This document shows, in pieces, positions 40,952 through 61,090 of a stretch of DNA of 64,000 nt. The notes under the pieces were generated by a model. That model saw only the letters and a list, made by a program, of their open reading frames with translations, ran no database searches and was not told the DNA's origin. Position numbers and translations under genes: made by a program. The DNA lies in contig NZ_JAEHGE010000001.1 in NCBI RefSeq assembly GCF_016097415.1, positions 3,352,857 to 3,416,856 of the forward strand, in the 5' to 3' direction. Every line of letters starts with the position of its first letter. Position 1 is the stretch's first letter. Source of the DNA: a sulfur-oxidizing endosymbiont of Gigantopelta aegis. Its GTDB lineage: Bacteria > Pseudomonadota > Gammaproteobacteria > GRL18.

Positions 40952-41803
40952 TCAGGAAGGTTTAACTAACACCACGCTAATATTATCTTTGCCGCCAGCA
41001 TTGTTGGCGGCATCCACTAATGCTTGAGCCATTTTCTTGAGTGATTGTTTGCGTTGTGCATGGAGGCAGTGACGTATTTCTTGATCAGAAAGCATATCAG
41101 AGAGGCCGTCTGAGCAGAGCAGAAAAATATCATTTTCTTTAATCGTCACTGTATGTTGCTCGGCCACTACTCGACGCCAGGGGCCGATGGCCTTATAAAT
41201 AATATTATGCTTGGGAGGGTCGCCGTCTTTGCCTGTTTCTACCCAGAGTTGATAATGACTATGATCGGTGCTCAGTTGTTTTAATGTACCCTGATTATAA
41301 CAATAAGTACGACTATCCCCGACATTAAAAGCATAGAGCTTTTTCTTAGTGAGGCTTGTTGCGGAATGATTCAGAGCGCTACTCATTGAAGCGATTAAAA
41401 ATCCGGTGACGGTTGTACCCATGCCCCGGCCTTCGGCCAGACCTTTAGCTAAGTTGTAGCAATGGGTTTGATTGTTGGCATCCTCAATAGCATCTTGTAA
41501 TAATTGATGGATGATTTCTGAGCTGCTCTTACTCTTATGCTTTTCTTGAAGAGAAGGCTGTTGAAGCTTGTCGTCCAGTTTTTTGATATGGTTAAAAAGA
41601 GTTTCAATGGCTAATTTACTAGCCACTTCGCCTTCTTCATGCCCGCCCATGCCATCGGCGACAATAAACAAGCCTAACTTTTCATCAATAAGAAAATTAT
41701 CTTCATTGTGATCTCTGCGTTGGCCGACATCGCTTATGCCTGCAGAATAGAGCCGAATGGGATCGGGCTTATAAGTCAGTTTATCGAAAAACTTTTTCAG
41801 CAT
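40952..41803 (-). CDS. PP2C-family serine/threonine protein phosphatase
   Basis: This 283-residue Mn/Mg-dependent phosphatase of the Stp1/PrpC type has the metal-binding motifs DVGQRRDHNEDNFLI, GLFIVADGMGGHEEGEVAS and LCSDGLSDMLSDQEI, ending with AGGKDNISVVLV. An insert of about 30 residues (LDDKLQQPSLQEKHKSKSSS) lies after the first motif. Stp1-type enzymes usually reverse Hanks-type kinases; none is seen in the window. It is the last gene of the coiled-coil/yigZ/syd/PP2C cluster, now separated from the first two genes' transcript by an IS inside syd. Confidence 0.9.
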   Translation of the reverse strand: MLKKFFDKLTYKPDPIRLYSAGISDVGQRRDHNEDNFLIDEKLGLFIVADGMGGHEEGEVASKLAIETLFNHIKKLDDKLQQPSLQEKHKSKSSSEIIHQLLQDAIEDANNQTHCYNLAKGLAEGRGMGTTVTGFLIASMSSALNHSATSLTKKKLYAFNVGDSRTYCYNQGTLKQLSTDHSHYQLWVETGKDGDPPKHNIIYKAIGPWRRVVAEQHTVTIKENDIFLLCSDGLSDMLSDQEIRHCLHAQRKQSLKKMAQALVDAANNAGGKDNISVVLVKPS

Positions 41804-41849: not shown

Positions 41850-42227
41850 TTAGGCGTGGCGTTTTCCATAGTCCAGTTCATTAATGAATTGGTTCAGGTC
41901 ACTGGCCAGCACTTTTTCTACCGGATAGCCCGGGCGTTCCAGTACCACCTGACCAGAATCATTTTCAACACTGATCATGTAGTCTGAATCAGTACAGGCA
42001 ATAAAAAAAGTTAGAGTTTGTTTATTGCGTAATTTACCCAAGGCATGGCCAATTTGATTTTCAATCAGGCGATCCATATCTGCGCTGTTCCAGACAAATA
42101 AAAGTGTTAAATTACCCTGTTGAAAAATAGTATCAATTTGATCCGACCAGTAATGACTAAAAAATAGTTTAATTTCCGGGCGTATTTCGGTGTCCAAGGC
42201 TTTTTCCAAGCCTCCCAAATTATTATT
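41850..42227 (-). pseudogene. syd: SecY-interacting protein Syd, C-terminal part
   Basis: Syd binds SecY and monitors translocon assembly in E. coli. This part covers LGGLEKALDTEIRPEIKLFF, TLLFVWNSADMDRLIENQIGHALG and SGQVVLERPGYPVEKVLASDLNQFINEL, lining up with the C-terminal two thirds of E. coli Syd. It has lost its start: the IS3-b element lies directly upstream, and the N-terminal part is at 43643-43888. The TTG at 42218 seen as a start is not native. Confidence 0.85.
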
Positions 42228-42294
42228 TATAGTGGACCCCGAAAACTGGACAATAGGTTAAGATATAAGAGCTAACCTAACGGGGAACAAAAAA

Positions 42295-42584
42295 ATGAGC
42301 ACAAAAAGAAAAACATTCAACAACAAATTTAAAGCAAAAGTAGCCATTGAGCTTTGAAAGGTCAAAAACAGTCGCAGAAATTGCGTCAGAATTTGAAGTG
42401 CACACCACCCAGGTCAATAGCTGGAAAAAGCAGATGCTTGATGGTGCAGCCGATACTTTTTCAAAAAAAATTAGAGAATAAAGATGCTGAACATGAAAAG
42501 GAAAAAGAACACCTGTACAGCCAAATAGGTCAACTAAAAGTAGAGGCTGACTGGCTGTCAAAAAAGTTGAAGATGTTCAACTGA
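42295..42584 (+). pseudogene. IS3-b orfA, frameshifted
   Basis: The start MSTKRKTFNNKFKAKVAIEL (ATG 42295) ends at a TGA. The continuing sequence in another frame reads LKGQKTVAEIASEFEVHTTQ and VNSWKKQMLDGAADTF, and after a further shift KDAEHEKEKEHLYSQIGQLKVEADWLSKKL. Together these make the usual helix-turn-helix and zipper of IS3 OrfA. At least two indels break it. Confidence 0.85.
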
Positions 42585-42721
42585 GTAGAGCAGAAAAGCG
42601 GTGTTGCATAGAAAAGAGCACCCTCAGTTGAGCATCAAAAACAATGTGAGCTTATCGGCCTGAACCGTTCAAGCTATTACTATCAACCTAAAAGCCTCTG
42701 CAAAATAAAGATTTAACATTA

Positions 42722-43444
42722 ATGAATTTGATTGATGAGTTGTACATAAAACATCCATTCTATGGCAGTCGTCAAATTCGTAATGCATTAAGATTGAAAT
42801 GTTATAAAATTAATCGTAAAAAGTTCAACGGCTTATGCGGATCATGGGAGGTTTCAGTGGCACCAAAACCCAATACCAGCAAGCCTTGCAAAGTAAATAA
42901 CCTCTATCCATATTTGCTCAAAGGAATTGATATTAATAGGAATAACCAGGTTTGGTGCACAGATATCACGTATTTACGGATGCCACATGGATTTGTCTAC
43001 CTAAGTGCTGTTATGGACTGGAGTAGCCGTTTTGTGCTGTCCTGGGAAGTGTCAACCAGCATGGAAGAAAGCTTTTGTATCAGTAGTCTGGAAACAGCAC
43101 TGCGACGATATGGAAAGCCAGAAATCTTCAATACGGATCAAGGTGCTCAATATACTAGCAGAGCATTTACAGGTGTTCTAAAGGCCAATGATATAAAAAT
43201 CAGCATGGACGGCAAAGGCAGAGCAATGGATAACATTATGATTGAACGACTCTGGCGAAGTGTAAAATATGAGGAAATTTACCTCAAGGATTACCAAAGT
43301 ATTGATGAGCTAAAGAGCTCATTAAAGGAATATTTTGAGTTTTACAACCATGAACGACCACACAGTACACACGGTGGAAAAACGCCTGCAGAGATCTATG
43401 GCGTGATGAAAGAAGTTGTTCCAGACTTAAAACGGGCAGCATGA
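42722..43444 (+). CDS. IS3-b orfB, DDE transposase (240 aa, probably non-functional)
   Basis: This rve-type integrase core has WCTDITYLRMPHGFVYLSAVMDWSSR (first Asp), IFNTDQGAQYTS (second Asp) and MIERLWRSVKYEEIYLKDY (Glu). An N-terminal MNLIDELYIKHPFYGSRQIRNAL segment is the usual HTH_21 region. The 5' part of the normal orfB is missing or out of frame between 42584 and 42722. It is distinct from the IS3-a transposase. Confidence 0.87.
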   Translation: MNLIDELYIKHPFYGSRQIRNALRLKCYKINRKKFNGLCGSWEVSVAPKPNTSKPCKVNNLYPYLLKGIDINRNNQVWCTDITYLRMPHGFVYLSAVMDWSSRFVLSWEVSTSMEESFCISSLETALRRYGKPEIFNTDQGAQYTSRAFTGVLKANDIKISMDGKGRAMDNIMIERLWRSVKYEEIYLKDYQSIDELKSSLKEYFEFYNHERPHSTHGGKTPAEIYGVMKEVVPDLKRAA

Positions 43445-43475
43445 TGAGAGGATAATCAACTTTACTGGCAACCGC

Positions 43476-43567
43476 CTTGTCCACATATCCACAGGCCAAG
43501 CCAGTAGCCCTGAGATATATCGCAAGCGTCTCTGGACTACTGGCAGACCTGTGGATATGTGGATAAG
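43476..43567. repeat. Large hairpin with DnaA-box-like sequences, 3' of IS3-b orfB
   Basis: Arms of about 31 bases at 43476-43507 and 43537-43567 are nearly perfect inverted repeats. The right arm on the minus strand reads CTTATCCACATATCCACAGG, containing TTATCCACA, the E. coli DnaA box consensus, and a second near match. Confidence 0.8.
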
Positions 43568-43642
43568 ACTAATACTATAAATAACCAACAGAATTATATC
43601 TTAATATTTGAGAAAGCTGTCTTGACAATGGGGTCCACTGTA

Positions 43643-43888
43643 ATTGGCTTCTCTTTGAATCGGTAACCAGTGTATCGAATCTTGCATTGTTTCAGAAAGA
43701 AAGGCATCACCTTGCTGGCACTCTGATGGCCAATCAGGCTCATGTTTAGTGATAGGTGATTCGCCTGTTTCTGCATTCACAACATTAATAAAGCGTTTAA
43801 AAAAATTATCCAGGGTGTTATTAAATTTACTTGCCTGTGCTGAAATATCGGTGTTTTTGATGTCTGACATGATTGTATTTGAGTTCAT
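43643..43888 (-). pseudogene. syd: SecY-interacting protein Syd, N-terminal part
   Basis: The open frame starts at ATG 43888, directly after the yigZ stop (TAAATG). It encodes FFKRFINVVNAETGESPITKHEPDWPSECQQGDAF and HWLPIQREAN, matching the N-terminal region of Syd. At 43642 it runs into IS3-b and continues nonsensically to 43601. Joined to 41850-42227 after removal of the IS, it gives a full-length Syd of about 205 residues. Confidence 0.83.
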
Positions 43889-44524
43889 TTATTGATTATG
43901 AACAAATGATACCTCACCTTTACAGATGTTACGAATTTGTTGCTGCATATTCTCAATCAGTGTTTGCTCAATTTGGATTTGAAATATGACCAGTGTTTGA
44001 TATTCTACCTGGGCAAGCTTAACCTCAATTGATTCAAGATAATGCCGGATAGAGGATTCAAAGGAGAAAGAAAATTCTATCTGCCAGTCTTGTAGTTCGA
44101 CAATTTCTTGAACCGATAATTGCTCAAGTGCTGCTTGGGTACTATTGCTATAAGCACGGATCAGGCCGCCTGCGCCTAATTTAATGCCACCAAAATAACG
44201 ACTGACAACACAAATTATTTCGCCATAGTGGCTATGTTGTAGGACATTTAAAATAGGCTTACCAGCCGTGCCGGATGGTTCACCGTCATCACTAAAACGC
44301 ACCGCAGTGGATGATAGAGGAGGGCAGGCAATATAGGCCCAGCAATGATGCCGTGCATCAGGATAGCGCTGTCGGGCTTGTTCGATAATTTGTCGCGCCT
44401 TCTCGCTGCTATCACAATGAGCTATATGAGCAATAAACCGACTACGCTTAATTTCAGTCTCTATTTCAAGCGCTTGCTCTGGAATGAAATAACGCGTTGT
44501 TTCAGCCATTAATGCCTCAGTCAT
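43889..44524 (-). CDS. yigZ: YigZ/IMPACT family protein
   Basis: This 211-residue protein has the conserved IMPACT core: EIKRSRFIAHIAHC, ARHHCWAYI, FSDDGEPSGTAGKPILNVLQ and VVSRYFGGIKLGAGGLIRAYS. The C-terminal ferredoxin-like DUF1949-type domain follows. The family is linked to translation-related regulation in eukaryotes, but its bacterial function is not settled. A second in-frame ATG (44509, MAETTRYFIPEQ) may be the real start. It lies 21 bases after the coiled-coil gene and directly before syd, so the genes form one minus-strand cluster. Confidence 0.92.
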   Translation of the reverse strand: MTEALMAETTRYFIPEQALEIETEIKRSRFIAHIAHCDSSEKARQIIEQARQRYPDARHHCWAYIACPPLSSTAVRFSDDGEPSGTAGKPILNVLQHSHYGEIICVVSRYFGGIKLGAGGLIRAYSNSTQAALEQLSVQEIVELQDWQIEFSFSFESSIRHYLESIEVKLAQVEYQTLVIFQIQIEQTLIENMQQQIRNICKGEVSFVHNQ

Positions 44525-44545: not shown

Positions 44546-47500
44546 TTAGACACCACTTTCTTTTTTTATGGAATCATAGACTGCTTTCAGCTCATCATGA
44601 ATTGAGTTTTCCTTGGCTGATGGCTTATTGTCTGCTGGAATGTTTGATGGGGCAACGGATGTTTTTAATACCGGTGGCGCAACTTCTTGTTGTGTGTTGC
44701 CTAATAATTGTTCGCGACGGCGCTTAGCTTCTTCAATGGCTTGTTTCCTTGCTTCATCTTTTGCTCGGAGTAAGGCGTTTTGGCGCTCAATTTCACGGGA
44801 GCGCTGTGATTCAGCTTCCAATTGTACCCGGGCATTATCTGCTTCAGATTGCATGCGATCCAATTCGTTTTGTTGCAGTGCAATTGATTGTTCCTGAAGT
44901 TGTTTGTTGATCTGAATTTGTTCTAATTGTTCTTTGAGTTCAAGTGCTTCTTCTTGCGCCTGCTTTTCTAATTCTAATTTTTGTTTTTGTAATTCATTAA
45001 CTTCCTGCAAGGCACTTTGGCGAGCTGTTTCCAATTGAGTTTTTAATGCTTCAGCTTCTTGTTCTGCAGCTTGCCGATCAGCAGCTAATTGCTGTTTTAA
45101 AGCCTCGGCTTCTTTTGTTGCTTCAAGTTTATCAGCTTCTAACTGCTGTTTTAAAGCCTCAGCTTCTTTGCTTGCTTCGAGCTTATCGGTTTCTAATTGT
45201 TGTTTTAAAGCCTCGGCTTCTTTTGTTGCTTCGAGCTTATCGGTTTCTAATTGTTGTTTTAAAGCCTCGGCTTCTTTTGTTGCTTCAAATTTATCAGCTT
45301 CTAATTGCTGCTTTAAAGCCTCGGCTTCTTTGCTTGCTTCGAGCTTATCGGTTTCTAATTGTTGTTTTAAAACTTCAGCTTCTTTTGTTGCTTCAAGCTT
45401 ATCAGCTTCTAATTGTTGTTTTAAAGCCTCGGCTTCTTTTGTTGCTTCAAGCTTATCAGCTTCTAATTGCTGCTTTAAAGCCTCGGCTTCTTTGCTTGCT
45501 TCGAGCTTATCGGTTTCTAATTGTTGTTTTAAAACTTCAGCTTCTTTTGTTGCTTCAAGCTTATCAGCTTCTAATTGTTGTTTTAAAGCCTCGGCTTCTT
45601 TTGTTGCTTCAAGCTTATCAGTTTCTAATTGCTGCTTTAAAGTCTCAGCTTCTTGCATTGCAACTTGACGGTCAGTTTCTAGCTGCTTTTTCAGTTCTTC
45701 AACTTCTTGGTTGCCATCTTGGCGAGCTGTTTCCAGTTGTTCTTTCAGCTTGCGAGTCTCTTCCTCGGTTTGCTTCATCAGGACATCTTTTTGTGTTCTA
45801 AGCTCTTCAGCTTCGTCAAGTGCTTCTTGTTTTGCTGCTTCAACCTGTTCTTTAAAGGCAAAAATTTCGTGCTGGTATTTTAAAGCTTCATCTTCAAGTT
45901 TTTGAGCTTCTTCTGACAGGGATAATTTTTCGGCTTCCAATTGTTGCCGCTGCTGTAATACTGCAGCTTCGAGTTCTTTGCGTTCGGTGTCAATTTCATG
46001 CGCCATATCTTGACGTAATTTGTCCATGTCAGAACGAGCCTGTGCTGTTTCAGCACGGACTTGTTCTAGTTCATTTTCAAATTCTTCACGGGCTAATTCT
46101 GCGGCTTGCGCACGCTCATTGGCACTATCAATACGTTGTTGTGCTTCGGCTAATTCCTCAGAGCGTAGTTTTTCCTGTTCTTCTCGCTCAAGTTTCTCAG
46201 CCTTCATTTGCTCGGCAAGGCGTTGCATTTCATCTTGTGCGTCAACACGTGCTTGCTCAGCTGTTAAACGCTGACTTTCGTGTTGATCTGCTTCTTGCTG
46301 AGCCTGATTGATTTTTTCTTGTAGTGCATTCTCCTGCTCCATGCTTAAGCGAGCGTATTCTTCAGATAAAGCTTCTTGGGCAGCATCCATTTCGGCTTTA
46401 ATGTTGAGTAACTCGTCTTCAGCAGTGGTTTTTAAATGGTTGCTATGCTGGTCTTGCAAAGAGGCTTGCTCTTGCTGTTGTTTTTCCAGCTCTTTTGCCA
46501 TTTGTTCTTTGGCTTCGAGCATTTCCTGTTTAAGGCGTTCGACTTCAGCTAGTGCGGCCTCTCTGTCCGCATCAATTTTTTCTGCGCGTTCTTTTTCTTC
46601 CTGAGCCTTGATGCGGGCTTCATGAATTTCGGCATGTTGGCGGGCATCGGCATCTTTTCTCAGGCGCTCAATTTCTTCTTTGGCATTGAGCAACTCGGAT
46701 TCTGCTTGAGAAGAGAGTTTGGCGAGATCTTCAGATTGTTGCAAGGCTTGTTCAGCTTCTTCACGCACCCGTTGTGCTTCAGCAATAGCTTCTTCAGCCC
46801 GTTTTGCCTCTTCTTGTGATTGTTTTTGAGCTTCAGCTAAAGCGGCTTCTTTTTCACTGAGTTGTTCCTGACTGGACTGGCGAATGGCTTCTTCAGCATC
46901 TTTTCGAGCTTGTTCTGCCGCTTCGGCACGTTTACCTTCTTCTTCTGCTCGTTTAAGCGCTTGCTCAGACTCTTGTCGGAGACGATTGGCTTCTAATTCA
47001 GCATTTTCTGCTCGTTCAGCTTCAGATTTTGCTTTAGAGAGTGCGTTATTGACTTCATCAGATTTTACCTGCAAGGCTTCTTTGTGTAATTCTTTGGCTG
47101 TTTCTTCCGCTTCTTTTCGCGCCGCTTCTGCTGCTGTTGCCCGTTGTGCTTCTTTTTCAGCTAATTGTCGGGCAGAGTCTGCGTCATCGCGTAACTTCTC
47201 TGCTTCTTTCTCGGCCTTAATGCGTGAGGCTTCGGCTTCGGCTTTGAGGTGTGTTTCTTCTTCTACCTGTTGTTTAATTTGATCGAGTTCGAGTGATGAC
47301 TTGCCTTGCTCTTCTTGTTGTGCTTCAAGTTGTATTGCTTTGAGTTGTGCTGATTTCAGAGCAAGTTCTGCTTGCTGAGCACGCTTGGCTTCTTGCTCGG
47401 CTTTTTTAAGGGCTTCTTGAGCTTCTCCACGTAAATCTGCTGCCATGCCCTCAGCTTCTTTGCGGGCTGTCTCTGCGATATTGAGTTGCTTGGATTGCTC

Positions 47501-48712
47501 TTCGGCTTTTTTTCGTGCGGCTTCAACTTCCGGTGAGGTAATGGTTTCCTGGCGACGTTCGGTAACTGCTGGTGAGGCTTTTACTGGCGCTATGGGCTTA
47601 TTTTGAGAGACAACTGGTTTAGCGGCAGGCCTTACAGCTTCCTTATTAGGGGAAGTGGTGGCAGCACTTTGAGAAATATCGGCTGCGCCAACGCCACCTT
47701 CAATAATAGTACAGTCATAACCCTGCTGAATAAATAAAAATGCCCCAGCAATACTGCGATTCTCGTTGCTGGAATATATAATATAGTGTTTCTCTGCAGA
47801 GAGCTTGCTTAATTGGCTGCGGATTAAATTAATTGGGATATTGATGCTATCAGCTAGGCCATTGGCGGCAAATTCATTTTCATTACGCACGTCAATGAGC
47901 TGAATCTCTGCTTGATTCAGTGCTGCGATCTCACTTTGTTTGATGCGATGTATTAAGGGTGAAACCAGTAGATCAATAAAATCTTTTTTGTCTAGCGAAA
48001 GAATTACGCCATCGGTTTGCATGGTAACGCTCGCACCACGGATACCACCGGTAATGAGTGCTTCTTCACCAAAGCCATCGCCCAGGCGTAATTCTGCTAA
48101 GGTGACTTGGTCGCCAGTGCTGGGATTGGTTTTTGTGACGATGCAACGGCCTTGTTGAATGATGTAGAATTTGTCATCATTGGCATCATTTTCTTTAATG
48201 ACACTGGAACCCATGGCTAGCGGTGTTTCCTGTAAGCGCATCATCAGAGCCTGGATATTGGACGCAGGCAATTGTAAGAAGGCATTGGATTGTAAAAAAC
48301 GCGTCATCCAGTCTTCGTCTTCATCATCCAATTCAGTCACTTCGATACTGGACGGTGCATTCCAATTGAGCAAAATATCTAAGAGATCCCGATCAATAAT
48401 TAAAATGCTAATGTCGGTTTTCGCTTTAGCTGAAGCGGGACGAGGGATAGCGTTGGCAATGGCATTTTTGGCGGCATTGGAATTAGCTTCAATTAATTGT
48501 GCTTTGCTGCCAGACTCTTTAACTTCTACTGTGCCTGAGAGTAGGTATACTGTCCATTTGTCCTTATCACCCTGTTTAAAAAGCATCCGCCCAGCAGGAA
48601 TTTTTTGCACGGCTGACTTTTCAATCACCTCTTGAACTTTATCAAGACTTAGAGAATCTAAGGGTGAAAATTTCTTTATGATGTTTACATCTAGATTAGG
48701 CGCGGCAGCCAT
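44546..48712 (-). CDS. Giant coiled-coil protein with two cNMP-binding-like domains and a rhodanese-like domain
   Basis: The gene encodes 1388 residues and no signal peptide or membrane helix is visible. A first cyclic-nucleotide-binding-like domain lies at about 15-125 (RMLFKQGDKDKWTVYLLSG). A second at about 140-255 is better conserved (SSVIKENDANDDKFYIIQQG, LRLGDGFGEEALITGGIRGA). A rhodanese-like domain lies at about 258-345 (IQLIDVRNENEFAANGLADS), but the active-site loop reads YSSNENRS, with Ser in place of the usual Cys. A Pro-rich linker follows, then about 940 residues of Glu/Ala/Lys/Gln-rich coiled coil. In it, an 18-residue unit KQQLETDKLEATKEAEAL repeats about ten times nearly exactly between residues 1020 and 1220. 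The C-terminus (NSIHDELKAVYDSIKKESGV) is non-coiled. The gene heads the cluster with yigZ, syd and a PP2C phosphatase. Function is unknown; a cytoplasmic scaffold whose assembly responds to a nucleotide is one inference. Confidence 0.9.
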   Translation of the reverse strand: MAAAPNLDVNIIKKFSPLDSLSLDKVQEVIEKSAVQKIPAGRMLFKQGDKDKWTVYLLSGTVEVKESGSKAQLIEANSNAAKNAIANAIPRPASAKAKTDISILIIDRDLLDILLNWNAPSSIEVTELDDEDEDWMTRFLQSNAFLQLPASNIQALMMRLQETPLAMGSSVIKENDANDDKFYIIQQGRCIVTKTNPSTGDQVTLAELRLGDGFGEEALITGGIRGASVTMQTDGVILSLDKKDFIDLLVSPLIHRIKQSEIAALNQAEIQLIDVRNENEFAANGLADSINIPINLIRSQLSKLSAEKHYIIYSSNENRSIAGAFLFIQQGYDCTIIEGGVGAADISQSAATTSPNKEAVRPAAKPVVSQNKPIAPVKASPAVTERRQETITSPEVEAARKKAEEQSKQLNIAETARKEAEGMAADLRGEAQEALKKAEQEAKRAQQAELALKSAQLKAIQLEAQQEEQGKSSLELDQIKQQVEEETHLKAEAEASRIKAEKEAEKLRDDADSARQLAEKEAQRATAAEAARKEAEETAKELHKEALQVKSDEVNNALSKAKSEAERAENAELEANRLRQESEQALKRAEEEGKRAEAAEQARKDAEEAIRQSSQEQLSEKEAALAEAQKQSQEEAKRAEEAIAEAQRVREEAEQALQQSEDLAKLSSQAESELLNAKEEIERLRKDADARQHAEIHEARIKAQEEKERAEKIDADREAALAEVERLKQEMLEAKEQMAKELEKQQQEQASLQDQHSNHLKTTAEDELLNIKAEMDAAQEALSEEYARLSMEQENALQEKINQAQQEADQHESQRLTAEQARVDAQDEMQRLAEQMKAEKLEREEQEKLRSEELAEAQQRIDSANERAQAAELAREEFENELEQVRAETAQARSDMDKLRQDMAHEIDTERKELEAAVLQQRQQLEAEKLSLSEEAQKLEDEALKYQHEIFAFKEQVEAAKQEALDEAEELRTQKDVLMKQTEEETRKLKEQLETARQDGNQEVEELKKQLETDRQVAMQEAETLKQQLETDKLEATKEAEALKQQLEADKLEATKEAEVLKQQLETDKLEASKEAEALKQQLEADKLEATKEAEALKQQLEADKLEATKEAEVLKQQLETDKLEASKEAEALKQQLEADKFEATKEAEALKQQLETDKLEATKEAEALKQQLETDKLEASKEAEALKQQLEADKLEATKEAEALKQQLAADRQAAEQEAEALKTQLETARQSALQEVNELQKQKLELEKQAQEEALELKEQLEQIQINKQLQEQSIALQQNELDRMQSEADNARVQLEAESQRSREIERQNALLRAKDEARKQAIEEAKRRREQLLGNTQQEVAPPVLKTSVAPSNIPADNKPSAKENSIHDELKAVYDSIKKESGV
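45075..45650 (-). repeat. 54-bp tandem repeat array (about 10 units) in the coiled-coil gene
   Basis: Each 54-bp unit encodes the 18-residue module KQQLE-A/T-DKLEA-T/S-KEAE-A/V-L. Flanking units are more diverged (DRQAAEQEAEAL, DRQVAMQEAETL). Variable residues recur with a three-unit (162-bp) period, so the array grew partly by duplication of triplets. Confidence 0.9.
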
Positions 48713-48976: not shown

Positions 48977-51900
48977 ATGAACCAGAACACATCTCATCAG
49001 GCATTTCAGCAACAGCTTGCCCGTTTACGTGAACAAATTAAGCAATGTTATCTCTTTGACCGTTATCCTTTGAAAAAACAATTGGATAAAGCGTATTTGA
49101 TGCTGAAAAAAATGCCTAAAATAGAGTTTCAACCTGAAGTAGAGTCTCAAAAGGATAGAAAAAGCCCTTCTAAGACCGCTGTCTCGGATGAAAGTTCTAG
49201 TCGTGATAAGCAGAATTCAAAACAGTTAAATTATTTGCTTGATTTGATACTACGATGCGAGAAAAAGATTGCTCAGTCTGTAGCAAAAGTCACACAACGC
49301 AAACAAGCATTGCCCAAGCCTCAATTCCCTGATATTTTGCCGGTATCAAGGAAGTTGCATGAAATTCAACAATTATTGAAAAAACATCAAGTGATTGTGG
49401 TTGCAGGTGAGACGGGCTCTGGAAAAACCACCCAATTACCTAAAATAGCCCTCAGTATTGGTCGGGGTGTGATGGGACAAATTGCCCATACTCAGCCCCG
49501 TCGTTTGGCGGCTCGCAGTGTTGCAGAGCGTATTGCTGATGAGTTGAATACGCCTTTAGGTGAAAAAGTGGGCTTTAAGGTGCGTTTTAGCGATCAAAGT
49601 CGTGAAGAAACTTATGTCAAATTGATGACGGATGGTATTTTATTGGCTGAGACACAAACGGATCGTTTTTTAAATCGCTATGACACCATTATTATTGATG
49701 AAGCTCATGAGCGCAGTTTAAATATTGATTTTTTGCTGGGCTATATCAAGCAACTCCTGCCTAGACGACCTGATTTGAAGGTCATTATTACCTCGGCAAC
49801 CATCGATACGGAACGCTTTTCGCAGTTTTTTAACAATGCCCCAGTAATCGAGGTATCGGGTAGAACCTATCCTGTTGAAGTTCGCTACAATGCGATTGAA
49901 GATGATAGCGATATGATTGATGGTATTTTATTGGCGGTCGATGAATTAGCCACGGAAACCGATGGTGATATTCTGGTGTTTTTGTCCGGTGAAAGAGAAA
50001 TTCGTGAAAGTGCTGAAGCCTTGCGTAAACATCATCCTGATCACACGGAAATATTACCGCTTTATGCCCGCTTATCGCCCGGTGAACAGCGGCGTATTTT
50101 TTCCAGTCATAGTGGCCGACGTATTATCCTGGCGACCAATGTGGCTGAAACATCCCTGACCGTACCGGGAATTCGTTATGTGATTGATACGGGCTTTGCG
50201 CGTATCAGCCGTTATAGTGTGCGCCATAAAATTCAACGCCTACCCATAGAAAAAATATCCCAAGCCTCAGCCCGCCAGCGCAGTGGTCGCTGTGGACGGG
50301 TGAGTGATGGTATTGCCATTCGCCTTTATAGTGAACAGGAACATGATCAACGTCCGGGCTTTACCGAGCCGGAATTGCTCAGAACAAATTTGGCTCAAGT
50401 TATTTTGCAAATGCTGTCCTTACGCTTGGGTGATATAAAAGATTTTTCCTTTTTAGAAAAACCCTCAGACAAACAAATTAATGATGGTTATTTGTTGCTG
50501 GAACAGCTCGGAGCGATTAATTCTGCACGACAATTAACGGCCACTGGACGTTTACTGGCTCGGCTATCGGTTGACCCGAAAATAGGCCGGGTGATTATTG
50601 CCGGACAGCAGCATAAGGTATTGTCTGAGGTGTTGATCATTGCTTCGGCTTTGAGCTGTCAGGAACCCCGTGAACGTCCCGTTGAAAAACAACAGGCTGC
50701 GGATGAAAAACATGCTCAATATGCGAGTCAACGTTCTGACTTTATCACTTTTATCAATTTGTGGCTGAGTTATGAGCAGCAACGCAAACACCTGACACAA
50801 AATAAACTGCGTAAATATTGTAAGGCCAACTTTTTATCCTTTATGCGACTGCGTGAGTGGCGGGAACTGTATCAGCAATTATTGGGGCAATGTAAAGATT
50901 TAGGCTTTCGCTTAAATGACTTGCCTATTTTGAATCATGACCAGCCGCGTGATGATGAAGATAAATTAGATTATGCTGCTATTCATCAAGCCTTATTGAC
51001 GGGCTTTTTGGGTAATATTGGTTTTAAAGAAGATAAAAATACTTATCTGGGCGCACGCAATATGCGTTTTGGTATTTTTCCCGGATCACGCCTCTATAAA
51101 CGTAAGCCAAAATGGTTGATGGCGGCTGAGATTGTGGAAACCTCAGCGGTCTTTGCCCGTACTGTGGCAGGGATTGAGCCGCAATGGTTGGAACAGCAGG
51201 CACAGCATCTGATTAAACAGCATTATTTCGAACCGTTCTGGGAAGAAAAGTCAGGTCAGGTTTCTGCCTGGAGTCGGCTGAGTTTGTATGGCTTGGTGAT
51301 TAATGCGAAAAAGAAAGTCAACTATGGTCCGATTGATCCTGAAATTTCACAGACAATTTTTATTCGTGATGCCTTGGTCAGTGGTGATTATCACGATCAA
51401 AATCGTAAGACACCGCGTTTTATAAAATATAATTTAGCATTGATCAATGAATTGGAACACTTAGAACACAAATCAAGACGCAAAGACTTATTGGTTGATG
51501 AACTGGCTATTTTTGAATTTTACCAGCAACGCATAAAACATGACTTAATGCTTAATAATGACAGTGCTCAGCAGCCATTTATCTATACCCGTGCGGCATT
51601 TGAACAATGGCGTAAGAAAGTAGAGGCCAATGATCCAGAATACCTCTATTTGCAGCAAGCAGACTTGTTAAAAAAAGATGCCGATCATATTTCTGATGAA
51701 CTTTATCCGCCCACCATTATGAATCGAGACTTGCAATTACCGCTGGAATATCATTTTTTACCGGGACACGCACTGGATGGGGTGACACTGGTTTTCCCCT
51801 TGGCGGTGATAAATCAATTGGATGAAGCGGTTTTTGAGTGGTTAGTGCCCGGTCTCATTCGAGAAAAAATCACCTTATTATTGCGTGCTTTACCCAAGGT

Positions 51901-53152
51901 GATACGCAAACAATTTGTGCCTGTCCCCGATACGGTTACAGATTTTTTAGAACAAAAAGCTTATCGTCAGGGTGATTTAATGGCGCAATTACTGGAATTT
52001 CTTAAATCCCGTCTTTCTTATACCCTGTCTAATCAGCTGGATCATGAATTAAGACAGGATGATTCAAGCAATTTTATGAGTAAAATTCCGGATCATTTAA
52101 AAATGAATTTTAAGATCATTGATAAGGATGGTCATGAAATTGATAGTAGTCGAGATCTGTCATTGTTGAAGTTGCAATGGGGTGACAAAGCACTTGCTCA
52201 GTTTGAACAGTCCAGTGAAGGCATGAGTGCGATGGATGATTCTATTGAACGTCAGGGCATTGTGGAATGGGATTTTGATGCCTTGCCCGAAGCCATTGTC
52301 ATGGAACGACATGGTATGACCATGACGCTTTATCCGGCCTTGTGTGATCAGCAGGATAGCGTGGCCATCAAGTTGTATGATCAACATCAAATGGCTCAGG
52401 ATAATCACGGCCAGGGTATTTTTCGTTTAATTCGTCTGAGATTAGCCAAGCCGCTAAAACAATTACAGAAACAATTGCCCTTTATTGATAAGGCCTGTTT
52501 ATTGTTCACGCCTTATGGTACTTGCACATCATTAAAACAGGATATTGTTATTGCGATTCTACTTAATTGTTGGCGTGAAGTGATGACAAAGTCAGCAGTA
52601 AATATCGATGCCATTCGTAATAAATGCGTTTTTGAGCAAGTGGCTTTAGCTGTAGAAAAAACATTAGAAAACGATAAAGTTGATGTTTGTCAGACGGTGC
52701 TCAATGTTTTACAGGCGAATCAAGCATTGGCTAAACAGCTAAAAGGTAATATTCCTTTTAATTTGGTAATTACTTTGGCTGATATTAAAGCCCAGCAAAG
52801 CCATTTGATTTATCCGGGCTTTGTGGCGCAAACGCCTCTTATCTGGCTCAAGCGTTTGCCACGCTATATTAAAGGCATGACGATACGACTGGAAAAGGCC
52901 AAAAGTGATCCCCGTCGAGATGCTTTGAATCAGATGCAGATAACGCCTTTATGGGAACAATATGCACTTAAAATTCAAGCTTCTAAGGAAGATAAAAATA
53001 CCCTAGATGGATTGTTTTTTTCCGATATTGAATTACAAGACTATCGTTGGCTCATTGAAGAGCTGAGAATTTCATTGTTTGCTCAGGAACTAAAAACATC
53101 TCAGCCAGTGTCCGTTAAACGTTTAGAAAAAAAATGGCAGGCTTTATTATAA
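48977..53152 (+). CDS. hrpA: ATP-dependent RNA helicase HrpA
   Basis: HrpA is a DEAH-box helicase acting in mRNA processing and ribosome rescue in E. coli. The 1391-residue protein has motif I VVVAGETGSGKTTQLPK, Ia TQPRRLAARSVAERIADEL, II TIIIDEAHERSLNIDFLLGY, III VIITSATIDTERFS, V ATNVAETSLTVPGIRYVIDTG and VI QRSGRCGRVSDG. HA2, OB and a DUF3418 region follow, ending in LEKKWQALL. At 1391 residues it is about 90 longer than E. coli HrpA, the excess lying in the N-terminal 130 residues (SQKDRKSPSKTAVSDESSSR linker). The frame is uninterrupted over 4.2 kb. It is divergent from the coiled-coil gene, with 264 bases between them. Confidence 0.96.
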   Translation: MNQNTSHQAFQQQLARLREQIKQCYLFDRYPLKKQLDKAYLMLKKMPKIEFQPEVESQKDRKSPSKTAVSDESSSRDKQNSKQLNYLLDLILRCEKKIAQSVAKVTQRKQALPKPQFPDILPVSRKLHEIQQLLKKHQVIVVAGETGSGKTTQLPKIALSIGRGVMGQIAHTQPRRLAARSVAERIADELNTPLGEKVGFKVRFSDQSREETYVKLMTDGILLAETQTDRFLNRYDTIIIDEAHERSLNIDFLLGYIKQLLPRRPDLKVIITSATIDTERFSQFFNNAPVIEVSGRTYPVEVRYNAIEDDSDMIDGILLAVDELATETDGDILVFLSGEREIRESAEALRKHHPDHTEILPLYARLSPGEQRRIFSSHSGRRIILATNVAETSLTVPGIRYVIDTGFARISRYSVRHKIQRLPIEKISQASARQRSGRCGRVSDGIAIRLYSEQEHDQRPGFTEPELLRTNLAQVILQMLSLRLGDIKDFSFLEKPSDKQINDGYLLLEQLGAINSARQLTATGRLLARLSVDPKIGRVIIAGQQHKVLSEVLIIASALSCQEPRERPVEKQQAADEKHAQYASQRSDFITFINLWLSYEQQRKHLTQNKLRKYCKANFLSFMRLREWRELYQQLLGQCKDLGFRLNDLPILNHDQPRDDEDKLDYAAIHQALLTGFLGNIGFKEDKNTYLGARNMRFGIFPGSRLYKRKPKWLMAAEIVETSAVFARTVAGIEPQWLEQQAQHLIKQHYFEPFWEEKSGQVSAWSRLSLYGLVINAKKKVNYGPIDPEISQTIFIRDALVSGDYHDQNRKTPRFIKYNLALINELEHLEHKSRRKDLLVDELAIFEFYQQRIKHDLMLNNDSAQQPFIYTRAAFEQWRKKVEANDPEYLYLQQADLLKKDADHISDELYPPTIMNRDLQLPLEYHFLPGHALDGVTLVFPLAVINQLDEAVFEWLVPGLIREKITLLLRALPKVIRKQFVPVPDTVTDFLEQKAYRQGDLMAQLLEFLKSRLSYTLSNQLDHELRQDDSSNFMSKIPDHLKMNFKIIDKDGHEIDSSRDLSLLKLQWGDKALAQFEQSSEGMSAMDDSIERQGIVEWDFDALPEAIVMERHGMTMTLYPALCDQQDSVAIKLYDQHQMAQDNHGQGIFRLIRLRLAKPLKQLQKQLPFIDKACLLFTPYGTCTSLKQDIVIAILLNCWREVMTKSAVNIDAIRNKCVFEQVALAVEKTLENDKVDVCQTVLNVLQANQALAKQLKGNIPFNLVITLADIKAQQSHLIYPGFVAQTPLIWLKRLPRYIKGMTIRLEKAKSDPRRDALNQMQITPLWEQYALKIQASKEDKNTLDGLFFSDIELQDYRWLIEELRISLFAQELKTSQPVSVKRLEKKWQALL

Positions 53153-55854: not shown

Positions 55855-57411
55855 TTAACGAACAGCGTTCTTTACCTTTTCCAATTCTGATTTTTTAAAA
55901 TTCCAGGGAAGCAATGCTTCCAGCTTTTCAACCGTATCCGCATAAGGTAATTGGGTTAATACATAGACCATATACGTATATGGCTCAATATCATTGGCCT
56001 TAGCGGTTTCAATAAAACTATAATGAACTGCACTGGCATGTGCACCCTTTGGCGTATCTGAAAATAACCAGGCCTTTCTACCCACGCAGAATGGACGGAT
56101 AGCATTTTCTGCCAGCACATTACTGATATTCAACCGACCATCTTCACAATAAACAGTCAGCTTAGGCCATTGATTATTAATATAGGTGAGTGCTTTTCCT
56201 GTCAAGCTGTCGTTCGGCACTTTGCCCAGGGTGTTATCGACCCATGTTCTTATTTTCTCAAGAAGCGGCAGGCTCTGTTTCTGACGAACCTTAAATTTTT
56301 CATTAACACTGGCTTCTTTTATCTCACGCTCAATTAAATACAGCTTATTGATATGGGCCAGTGCCACATCGGCTTTGTAGGCTTTTGATTGCTCTTTTTC
56401 TTTGGTTGTGCCGTCTGAGAATCTTTGAATTTACGGCGAGTGTGATCCCAGCAGCCGACCGATGTGGCATTATTTTGTGCACACACGGCATTGTAACCGG
56501 CATAGCCATCGGTTTGCAGATAGCCGCTAAAGCCATCAAGCAGGCGCAGTGGTACTTCCTTCTTACGAGAAGGATCGTATTCAAACAGCACACTGGGTTG
56601 TCAGGTGGCCCGCCACGACTGACCCACATGTATTTGTTCGAATGAGCACTGAGTCCCGGCTCTTTTAATACTTTGAGCACCGTTTCATCCATTTGGATGA
56701 TGTCACCCGACAGTTGATGTTCTCGCATGAGGTTGATGAGCGGCTGGAACTGATGAGCCAGTTTAATAGCCCAATTGGCCATGGTGGCTCGGGTTATATC
56801 GCCGCCATAGCGTGATAATATGCCTTCCATTCGATACAGAGGCAAACCATCGGCATATTTTGAGATAATGATGTGTGCCATCAGGTGAATACTGCCCATT
56901 GATTTAGGTAATGGATGTTTTGGCATGACCGCAGCTTTCATTGAACGACTGTCTGTGTCATTGGTGCCTGCAAAGACGGCTTTTTCCTGGAAGTATTCCA
57001 GTATTTGGACTTTAGCTGGAATGATATCCAGCTCTTCTCTGACTTTAGTGTAAAAACCTCAATGGCACCGGCTTTTTCTTCATCTGTCAGATCGATGAAG
57101 ACAGGGACTCTTGGAATAGTCTTTGAGAAAGGCTTCCTGCCTGTTTTTCTTTCTTCTTAGGCGAAGTGGTTTTAGGTTCAGGAGCCCCTCATCGTCAGCC
57201 GCCTGCTCAGCTTCATCAAATAAGCGTTCCTGACCATCACTTTTTTCACTGCTGGGTGCAAAGCGTTTACTACGAGCCAGACAAAGGGCTTCTTCCAGTA
57301 TTTTTATACGGTGGTTTTTCTGTTCAATGACACTCAACAATTCATTCTTGTCCGCGTGTGAAAAAGCGGAAAATATAGAGTCGTTTTTGTGGATTCAGCC
57401 TTGTTTTGCAT
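55855..57411 (-). pseudogene. IS66-A copy 2 tnpC transposase, multiple frameshifts
   Basis: From ATG 57411 the frame is lost at several single-base indels when compared with copy 1. There is one A fewer near 57387, one C fewer near 57184, the shared TTTTTAC shift near 57055, one G fewer near 56602 and one A fewer near 56375. The end, KVKNAVR with TAA at 55855-55857, lies in the element terminus. Domains are as in copy 1, including the IIQMDETVLKVL catalytic segment. Confidence 0.88.
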
Positions 57412-58561: not shown

Positions 58562-59179
58562 TTACAAAATGTTGTTTGCGCTCGCTTGAATAGTCGTTTT
58601 GACCAGTTGTGCAACGGAGCTGGCTTCCATTTTTTCCATCATTCGGGCACGGTGAACTTCCACTGTTTTAATGCTGACATTGAGTTCGTGAGCTATGACT
58701 TTGTTAGGCTTGCCTTCGGTGACTCGCATCATCACTTCATGCTCTCTAGGTGTTAGAGAAGAGATGCGTTTATCAATGGATTCGTTTTGAATGAGTGATT
58801 CCATTGCTTCGCTATTATTTTTCAGGCCTCGTTGAACAGCATCAAGAAGTAACTGATCATTAAAAGGTTTTTCAATAAAATCAAAGGCTCCGCGCTTTAA
58901 GGCACGGACTGCCATCGGTACATCACCATGACCGGTAATGAATATTAGCGGTAATGACATAGCTCTGTTTTTCATTTCTTCCTGGGCTTCTAAGCCGCTC
59001 ATTCCGGGCATGCGTACATCCATGACAATACAGCCGGGCTCATTATTATAGTTTTCCAGAAACTCATCTGCACAGGTAAATGTGGTGACTTTCAGGCCAA
59101 TAGATTCGATCAACCAAGCAGTTGATTGTCGGACAGCTTCATCATCATCTACGATAAAAACGATGGCATCATTGCTCAT
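58562..59179 (-). CDS. FixJ/NarL-type response regulator, TtrR-like
   Basis: The 205-residue protein has an N-terminal receiver domain with the acidic pair in VFIVDDDEAV, the phospho-accepting Asp in GCIVMDVRMPGMSGLEA, and the late Lys in FDFIEKPFND. A C-terminal LuxR-type helix-turn-helix reads SLTPREHEVMMRVTEGKPNKVIAHELNVSIKTVEVHRARMM. This FixJ/TtrR layout pairs with the sensor kinase genes directly upstream, which it overlaps by 11 bases. The target genes are not visible in the window. Confidence 0.92.
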   Translation of the reverse strand: MSNDAIVFIVDDDEAVRQSTAWLIESIGLKVTTFTCADEFLENYNNEPGCIVMDVRMPGMSGLEAQEEMKNRAMSLPLIFITGHGDVPMAVRALKRGAFDFIEKPFNDQLLLDAVQRGLKNNSEAMESLIQNESIDKRISSLTPREHEVMMRVTEGKPNKVIAHELNVSIKTVEVHRARMMEKMEASSVAQLVKTTIQASANNIL

Positions 59180-60235
59180 TAATATTACTTCCTAGTTGTT
59201 CTTCCTGAATAGGCAATGTTAAACAAAATCGCGCGCCCTGTTCGGTATTATTTTCAGCATAGAGTTTGCCATCATGTGCTTCGATGATGGAACTGCTGAT
59301 AGATAAACCCATTCCCATGCCGCTAGTTTTAGTGGTAAAAAACGGATTGAAAATCCGCTTGAGCTTATCTTCACTGATTCCGTGACCACTGTCAATAACG
59401 CACAATTCGATAAATTTGTGATCCGAAAGTCGAGTGGAAACAATTATGCTGGGTTTTTCAATATTGGCCATCGATTCGATACCATTTTTGAGTAAATTGA
59501 TCAGGACTTGTTCTATTTGAATAATATCCGCAAGGACCGGTGGTAGGTCTTCGGTGAGATCTAAAATGAGTTCAACCTGCTTGTTTTTTAGTTGAGTCTC
59601 TAAAAATCCAGTCACCTCATTGACGATTTGGTTGATTTCACTATAGGTTTTATGGGATTCGCCTTTTCTGACAAAACTACGCAGGCGGCGAATGATCCCC
59701 CCGGCTCTATCTGCTTGTTGTGCGGTGAGTTTAAGGGCATTCACAATGGCATCCAAATCAGTATTGCCCATATTGATTCGACGGATACAGCCCTGAACAT
59801 AGGTATTGATTGCTGAGAGGGGTTGGTTCAGTTCATGGGCTAAGCCCGATGCCATTTCCCCCATGGTGCTTAGACGTGCTACGTGGGCTAATTCGGCCTG
59901 GTGAGTCAATGCTTGTTCCTGAGCATGCTGACGTTCTTTAATTTCCTGTAGCAAGGACTCTTTGGAGCTGGTAAGGCGATTATTCAAATCTCTTGACGAT
60001 CTTAGGTATAAAATTAATATGATGACTAGAAAACAGATAATAATGAAGCTGATCCAATATTGCATTTTGCGTGAGGTGTCATTATTTTCGCTGAAGTTGC
60101 TATTACTGGATTTTTTTTCAAGAGAAAATAGCGCATTGAGGGAATGATAATTTTGCGCAATATCCCAATAATATTGTGATTGTTGCGCTGTTGATTGAGT
60201 AAGAGTGAAACTACTTCTCTGGCTGTTTGATTATC
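59169..60235 (-). pseudogene. TtrS-like sensor kinase, C-terminal kinase part (frameshifted from sensor part)
   Basis: The region encodes a transmembrane helix (WISFIIICFLVIILILYL), a coiled linker, the H-box with the phospho-His in MASGLAHELNQPLSAINTYVQG, the N-box LINLLKNGIESM, and GHGIS and GMGMGLSISSSII for ATP binding. An ATG at 60065 could start a 298-residue kinase. However, the frame stays open upstream to about 60231 and there encodes SQYYWDIAQNYHSLNALFSLEKK, the expected end of the sensor domain. So the native gene was one protein with the part at 60195-61090. Without it the kinase could act only as an unsensing fragment. Confidence 0.82.
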
Positions 60236-61090
60236 AGTGAACCATGCTTTGGCCAGAGGCCATTCTGGAATGAGTACTGAGCTATGCAAAAAAGGAGCTT
60301 GCCAACCACGGCGTGGATTAATGAGGCGTAATTGCTCTAAGCTTTCGTGGCTAAAGGTGTTTTCAAGTATGCCGGACTTTGCCACAATGGCATCGAAGCT
60401 ACCGGCATAGAGTTGCGCTAAGGCCTGATTAATATTTTCGATGCGTTTAAGTTGTATGTTGGTGTTATTTATCAGGCCATTATTGGCAAGAAATTTTTCC
60501 AGAAACAGCCATGAGAGAGAGGAGTGGTCATTCACTATACCGAGGTTTTTATTTTTTAAATCTTGCAGGCGGGTGATATCTGAATTGTCATTTAAAGTAT
60601 AAACAGACAAGCCTTCGGTAGTGACATATTGGTCACCATATTGCACTGTGCGAGAGAGTAGGCGTAATAGGCCGTATTTTTTTTCCAGCAAAATATAATT
60701 GATGGCATCAGTGATAATAAAATCAAGTTCATCGACATCTAAGGCGCTGCGAATTTGTTTGGCATCTAAAAATCGTGCACTGAAATGGTATTTTGGATGA
60801 TTGTTTAAGCGTTCAAAGGTGTACTGCCAGGGGGTGTTTTTTATTGAATTCTGTGGGGTTTGGCTAAGAATACCGATGCTGATATTGTATTTTTTGTTTA
60901 CTCTTGATTCTTTGACTTGGACTTGAGGCTGCTCTGAAATGATAAAAGGCGTCTGGCTGGGAATATCGCTGATCGCATAAGCCGGGAGGCTAGCGTTAAG
61001 TAACCCGCTACAGAGAAGAAAACTAAAGGACAGCATGAATTGCTTATTGAAGCCTTTGAAGCGCCTGCTGGATGTCACGATTACAGTCAA
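60026..61090 (-). pseudogene. TtrS-like sensor kinase, N-terminal PhnD-type sensor part
   Basis: A signal peptide (QFMLSFSFLLCSGLLNASLPAYA) is followed by a PhnD/SsuA-type periplasmic binding domain of about 270 residues: ISIGILSQTPQNSI, FITDAINYILLEKKYGL, NKNLGIVNDHSSLSWLFLEKFLANNGL, AKSGILENTF. The frame is normal to TAREVVSLLLNQ at about 60195. It then shifts, so the last 58 residues to 60026 are nonsense. One base added near 60197 would join it to the kinase frame. TtrS of the tetrathionate-sensing system has the same sensor-membrane-kinase order; the ligand here is unknown. Confidence 0.8.

Follow-up and report, generated by a model that had tools for sequence, protein, structure and literature searches.

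The 1388-residue protein encoded in the 64-kb window (the whole stretch of DNA analysed, 64,000 nucleotides; Table 1) belongs to one branch of a family that is widespread and whose members share a head of two cyclic-nucleotide-binding-like domains (CNB1 and CNB2) followed by a rhodanese-like domain. Using a 23-row profile and a threshold of E ≤ 1e-40, we found this head in 170 of 369 gammaproteobacterial genomes; the 1388-residue protein matched the profile with E = 6.1e-147, the two CNB folds and then the rhodanese lying within its first ~350 residues. An earlier note on this DNA had taken the architecture to be undescribed, and had proposed a search for homologues with the same domain order; the many homologues recovered lead us to reject a unique architecture. 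What is new here is that genomes with the head nearly always encode a cyclase, class I foremost.

Table 1. Positions, in the window, of the gene, its parts and its neighbours.
Feature	Position	Strand	Basis
hrpA, divergent upstream neighbour; linkage kept in the bacterial family	48977..53152	+	Pfam, relatives
CNB1-CNB2-pseudorhodanese-coiled-coil protein, 1388 aa, ATG start	44546..48712	-	ORF and Pfam
CNB1, residues ~11-116, degenerate cassette	48365..48682	-	Pfam and alignment; structure model of low confidence here
CNB2, residues ~140-250, phosphate-binding cassette intact	47963..48295	-	Pfam, alignment, structure model
CNB2 phosphate-binding cassette FGEEALITGGIRGASV, residues 214-229, with E216 and R225	48026..48073	-	alignment
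Rhodanese-like domain, residues ~258-342	47687..47941	-	Pfam and structure model
Codon of Ser314, the residue in place of the catalytic Cys of the rhodanese	47771..47773	-	alignment
Conserved helical rod, residues 400-1000, near indel-free among relatives to residue ~960	45713..47515	-	alignment, periodicity
Tandem array of a 54-bp unit (18 residues), 10.7 copies, which adds length to the rod	45077..45654	-	repeat scan
C-terminal tail SIHDELKAVYDSIKKESGV, conserved; preceded by a variable linker rich in Pro and Ser	44549..44605	-	alignment of relatives
yigZ (IMPACT/UPF0029)	43889..44524	-	Pfam, NCBIfam
syd 5′ (N-terminal) part, cut by the IS	43601..43888	-	Pfam
IS3-type element (rve transposase) within syd	42227..43643	+	ORF, inverted repeats
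syd 3′ (C-terminal) part	41850..42218	-	Pfam
PP2C phosphatase; RxxNED, DGMGGH, GDSR, SDG and DN motifs present	40952..41803	-	Pfam, motifs

The head and its family

Pfam matched the protein to cNMP_binding in two stretches (1.6e-22) and to Rhodanese (2.7e-9), in agreement with the domains that the earlier note had assigned. The closest sequence and fold matches are the CNB domains of PKA and PKG, many of them with bound cAMP or cGMP. As in the PKA regulatory subunit and PKG, the CNBs are in tandem and one cassette is intact; unlike these proteins, however, the 1388-residue protein has neither a kinase domain nor an inhibitor segment, and carries a rhodanese and a rod instead. The Glu and Arg of a CRP/PKA-R type phosphate-binding cassette are present in CNB2 only. 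In an alignment of 79 heads (18 from the same bacterial family as the source of the window, 61 from outside it), E216 was found in 18 of 18 and 59 of 61 sequences, and R225 in 18 of 18 and 60 of 61, respectively; the cassette consensus FGE(E/D)AL...R.A(S/T), to which the 1388-residue protein conforms, is near-invariant across the alignment. CNB1 keeps the Pro-Arg (R91), but the position of its Glu is taken by Lys here, and by Lys or another residue across the family. The doubt raised earlier, that neither N-terminal domain might keep a cassette, is thus removed for CNB2, where it is complete, and stands for CNB1, which lacks the Glu. A CNB cassette can persist without cyclic nucleotide binding. 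The suggested structure prediction of the head (AlphaFold2) was built on a shallow alignment of 10 close sequences, and for that reason was confident for no more than CNB2 and the rhodanese; CNB1, with pLDDT below 50, was unreliable. PADLOC matches, which fall on CNB regions in TIR effectors, are explained by the CNB fold and by nothing more.

A Ser in place of the active-site Cys of the rhodanese, noted previously, was confirmed: the loop reads YSSNENRS here and YCDTGRRS in relatives. The protein departs from the CxxGxR-type active-site loop of catalytic sulfurtransferases at two positions, Ser314 and Glu317. The catalytic position is Ser in 17 of the 18 sequences of the bacterial family and Cys in 59 of the 61 outside it; the loop Gly is replaced by Glu in 17 of 18, and is Gly in 58 of 61 outside. 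One member of the bacterial family (G016) still has both Cys and Gly. Given the prevalence of Cys outside, that of Ser inside and the Cys retained in G016, the dead rhodanese is, on this alignment, a derived and lineage-specific state. Since some sister lineages have Cys at this position and others Ser, the branch offers a natural test of the role of a rhodanese without chemistry.

Among the best 150 listed matches, 85 open reading frames had 500 residues or fewer, 21 had 501-1000 and 44 had more than 1000. Fetched examples took three forms: a short one of ~355 aa without a rod; a soluble coiled-coil one of ~700-1390 aa, often in adjacent pairs; and one of 1300 to ~2000 aa, in which the coiled coil is followed by a transmembrane segment and an FGE-sulfatase domain. 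A quick maximum-likelihood tree placed the 1388-residue protein within a supported clade of its own bacterial family, the sister of which is a pair that has both a rod and a transmembrane segment but lacks an FGE domain. With other gammaproteobacterial CNB-CNB-rhodanese proteins it has in common the domain order, the CNB2 cassette and the degenerate CNB1; its branch differs in the Ser for Cys, the Glu for the loop Gly, the soluble rod and a tail of its own. Proteins tipped with FGE-sulfatase (L059, L062, L071, L116, L121) share the head and the long coiled coil, and nearly all have the rhodanese Cys, whereas in the 1388-residue protein neither an FGE-sulfatase domain nor a transmembrane segment was found (Pfam and hydrophobicity window, respectively).

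The earlier note had also allowed that the protein might fall into an already characterized family. The family is indeed widespread, yet no NCBIfam model matched the full protein and our literature search found no functional study of CNB-CNB-rhodanese proteins (PMC12604733 and PMC12419801 had no bearing on them). Rhodanese is named among the domains joined to bacterial CNBs in Kannan et al. (2007; PMC2246266).

Several features of individual loci are recorded here. In L129, L130, L131, L132 and L133, genes for soluble coiled-coil members lie side by side in divergent or tandem pairs, the two members of which belong to separate subclades; perhaps the paired members form heteromers. A PfkB-type sugar kinase gene follows the gene for the head, rod, transmembrane segment and FGE-sulfatase in six fetched loci (L116, L117, L118, L121, L123 and L135; two by Pfam scan, the rest by similarity). 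In one genome (G007) a long-rod copy (L046) lies between mfd and a helicase gene and the hrpA-linked copy is short (458 aa), a duplication in which head and rod have apparently been divided.

Cyclases in genomes with the head

We searched the same 369 genomes for class III (PF00211) and class I (PF01295) cyclases. Any cyclase was found in 167 of the 170 genomes with the head, against 85 of the 199 without it, and class I adenylate cyclase in 98 of 170 against 10 of 199. The association persisted when each of 155 taxonomic families was represented by one genome: class I was present in 43 of 72 with the head and 2 of 83 without, any cyclase in 71 of 72 and 38 of 83, respectively. Within class-III-positive families, the class I association held both above and below a genome size of 2.5 Mb (p = 7e-6 and 0.002). 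The source genome of the 1388-residue protein encodes one class I and two class III cyclases. This association, with class I above all, makes cAMP the most likely ligand, although it is a correlation in which lifestyle is uncontrolled or only partly controlled, and does not by itself prove a direct link. In one locus (L136:3937-7973, G154), a short CNB-CNB-rhodanese gene and a gene for a class I adenylate cyclase (~927 aa) are convergent and ~100 bp apart; this was the one clear case of a head gene beside a class I cyclase, and other same-contig pairs, compared by eye, lay tens of kb apart.

In textbook gammaproteobacteria, cAMP acts mainly via the transcription factor CRP. A large non-transcriptional family of probable cAMP receptors would, if the above is true, constitute a second, mostly unexamined cAMP output, and it is the CNB-CNB-rhodanese family as a whole, more than this single member, that holds lasting interest.

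Rod, tail and a possible mechanism

The ~940 residues of coiled coil with no membrane anchor described in the earlier note were borne out. Residues 400-1000 have a hydrophobic periodicity of 3.58 residues (power 13.3; 0 of 500 shuffles as high), a single Pro occurs in residues 386-1345, and 0 hydrophobic segments pass a 19-residue window test. The rod is very long, acidic and rich in Glu, Ala, Gln and Leu; Pfam detected no enzymatic domain in the long helical region after the rhodanese, and a match of the protein to suprabasin was rejected as a repeat or low-complexity match. In ten sequences, full-length or nearly so, from the same genera, residues 400-960 are ~80% identical with near-zero indels, residues ~1000-1240 are variable, and the tail motif SIHDELKAxYxSIKKE is kept behind a variable linker. 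Homology of this tail to the tails of other soluble coiled-coil forms was unsupported (hhalign probability 0.8%). Relatives have far fewer copies of the 54-bp repeat, although theirs are mostly fragmented metagenome assemblies in which arrays could be collapsed; in L046 a run of N occupies the region that matches the array. Cytoskeletal coiled-coil proteins of bacteria, such as crescentin, consist of a long soluble coiled coil flanked by short end segments; the 1388-residue protein shares the long soluble helical rod of such filaments and adds a large sensor head.

We propose, with a probability of about one half, that the protein is a cytoplasmic cAMP-switched dimeric rod, the pseudo-rhodanese head and the conserved C-terminal tail of which dock partners. 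Two or more chains would pair through the ~900-residue rod, and cAMP from class I or class III cyclases would bind CNB2 via E216 and R225; CNB1 would have lost ligand binding and would serve a structural role. Binding of cAMP would move the head, including the rhodanese fold, which, with Ser for Cys and sulfur no longer carried, may act as a docking surface. If the tail, at the far end of the length-variable rod, docks a second partner, cAMP would decide whether the two partners stay joined or are kept apart. The rods of sister branches end in a membrane segment plus FGE-sulfatase domain; these tips suggest that the rod carries a signal from head to tip. The comparison further suggests that the family's rods connect a sensor in the cytoplasm with a remote tip, and that in this lineage the tip was swapped or lost, with a short tail in its place. 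Of the nucleotide-responsive scaffold proposed earlier, the soluble rod and a probable nucleotide-sensing head (intact CNB2 cassette, cyclase co-occurrence) stand, but CNB1 is degenerate. A bolder version, which we regard as unlikely, is that these proteins are a widespread class of cAMP-gated cytoplasmic scaffolds, in which pseudo-rhodanese head and rod assemble into filaments or tethers of a length tuned by the 18-residue repeat; cAMP would then be a direct organizer of cell architecture, beyond transcription.

Neighbouring genes and other readings

The earlier note had placed the gene at the head of a yigZ-syd-PP2C cluster. The three genes do follow in that order on the same strand, yigZ beginning 21 bp downstream of the 1388-residue frame, but the IS3-type element (terminal inverted repeats 42227-42240 and 43630-43643), which the earlier note had put after the cluster, splits syd and leaves PP2C beyond it. 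As the element lies inside it, syd is probably not functional in this genome. A scan for promoters and terminators gave no excess over shuffled sequence. The neighbourhood survey that had been suggested showed the order hrpA, CNB-rhodanese-rod gene, yigZ, syd, PP2C in most contigs covering it in two related genera (g1 and g3), with a syd-PP2C gap of often 9 bp; the exceptions are G015, without yigZ, and G007, where a condensin-like operon replaces yigZ. Elsewhere, profiles of the three neighbours found 0 yigZ, 0 syd and 1 PP2C in 40 loci (from other bacterial families or from distant paralogues of this one); the single PP2C lies two genes downstream of a distant short form (L068). The linkage is, by these gene orders, real, young and confined to this bacterial family, and its youth makes it a weak argument that the genes share a mechanism.

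This bears on a reading in which the protein serves the linked PP2C as substrate or adaptor, Ser/Thr phosphorylation of its head or tail setting activity and the four genes forming one signalling operon. The conserved order in two genera, the short syd-PP2C gap, the intact PP2C motifs and the PP2C near L068 all favour it; however, the near absence of these neighbours from the 40 loci, the loss or displacement of yigZ in G015 and G007 and the broken syd of this genome make it quite improbable. A DNA-organizing or cell-cycle rod, to which the conserved hrpA linkage and the condensin-like genes next to the short copy in two relatives would point, we consider very improbable, since such genes occur in only two genomes and are absent from the others, and this part of the chromosome may be no more than a place where insertions occur. 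The remaining reading draws on the rod itself: a structural, crescentin-like filament or polar scaffold, with the CNB fold as a nucleotide-insensitive head for oligomerization or anchoring. The great length and acidic composition of the rod, its length-variable 18-residue repeats and the lost CNB1 cassette are in keeping with such a filament, but a CNB2 cassette near-invariant family-wide, the tracking of cyclases by the family and the existence of short forms without a rod speak against it, and we judge it unlikely.

The G007 operon lies between the CNB-rhodanese gene and syd-PP2C (L047:5901-11675) and encodes a JetD_C-like protein, an SMC-like ATPase (1013 aa), a 464-aa protein and MksE; to judge from these sequences, it is a divergent MksBEF/Wadjet-type condensin, barely seen by PADLOC models. 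Genes matching it in size and order extend to the contig end in G001 (L048:6396-10697). Elsewhere in the window, a 20-nt inverted repeat (CTTGTCCACATATCCACAGG; 43476-43567) lies near the right end of the IS3-type element and nowhere else in the 64 kb, and the C-terminal part of an IS66-family transposase remains at 55855-56367 (-). A sensor kinase with a phosphonate-binding sensor and HisKA/HATPase (59169-61090, -) is in two overlapping frames here and is a single 670-aa protein in L035; the LuxR-type response regulator beside it is ~97% identical between species.
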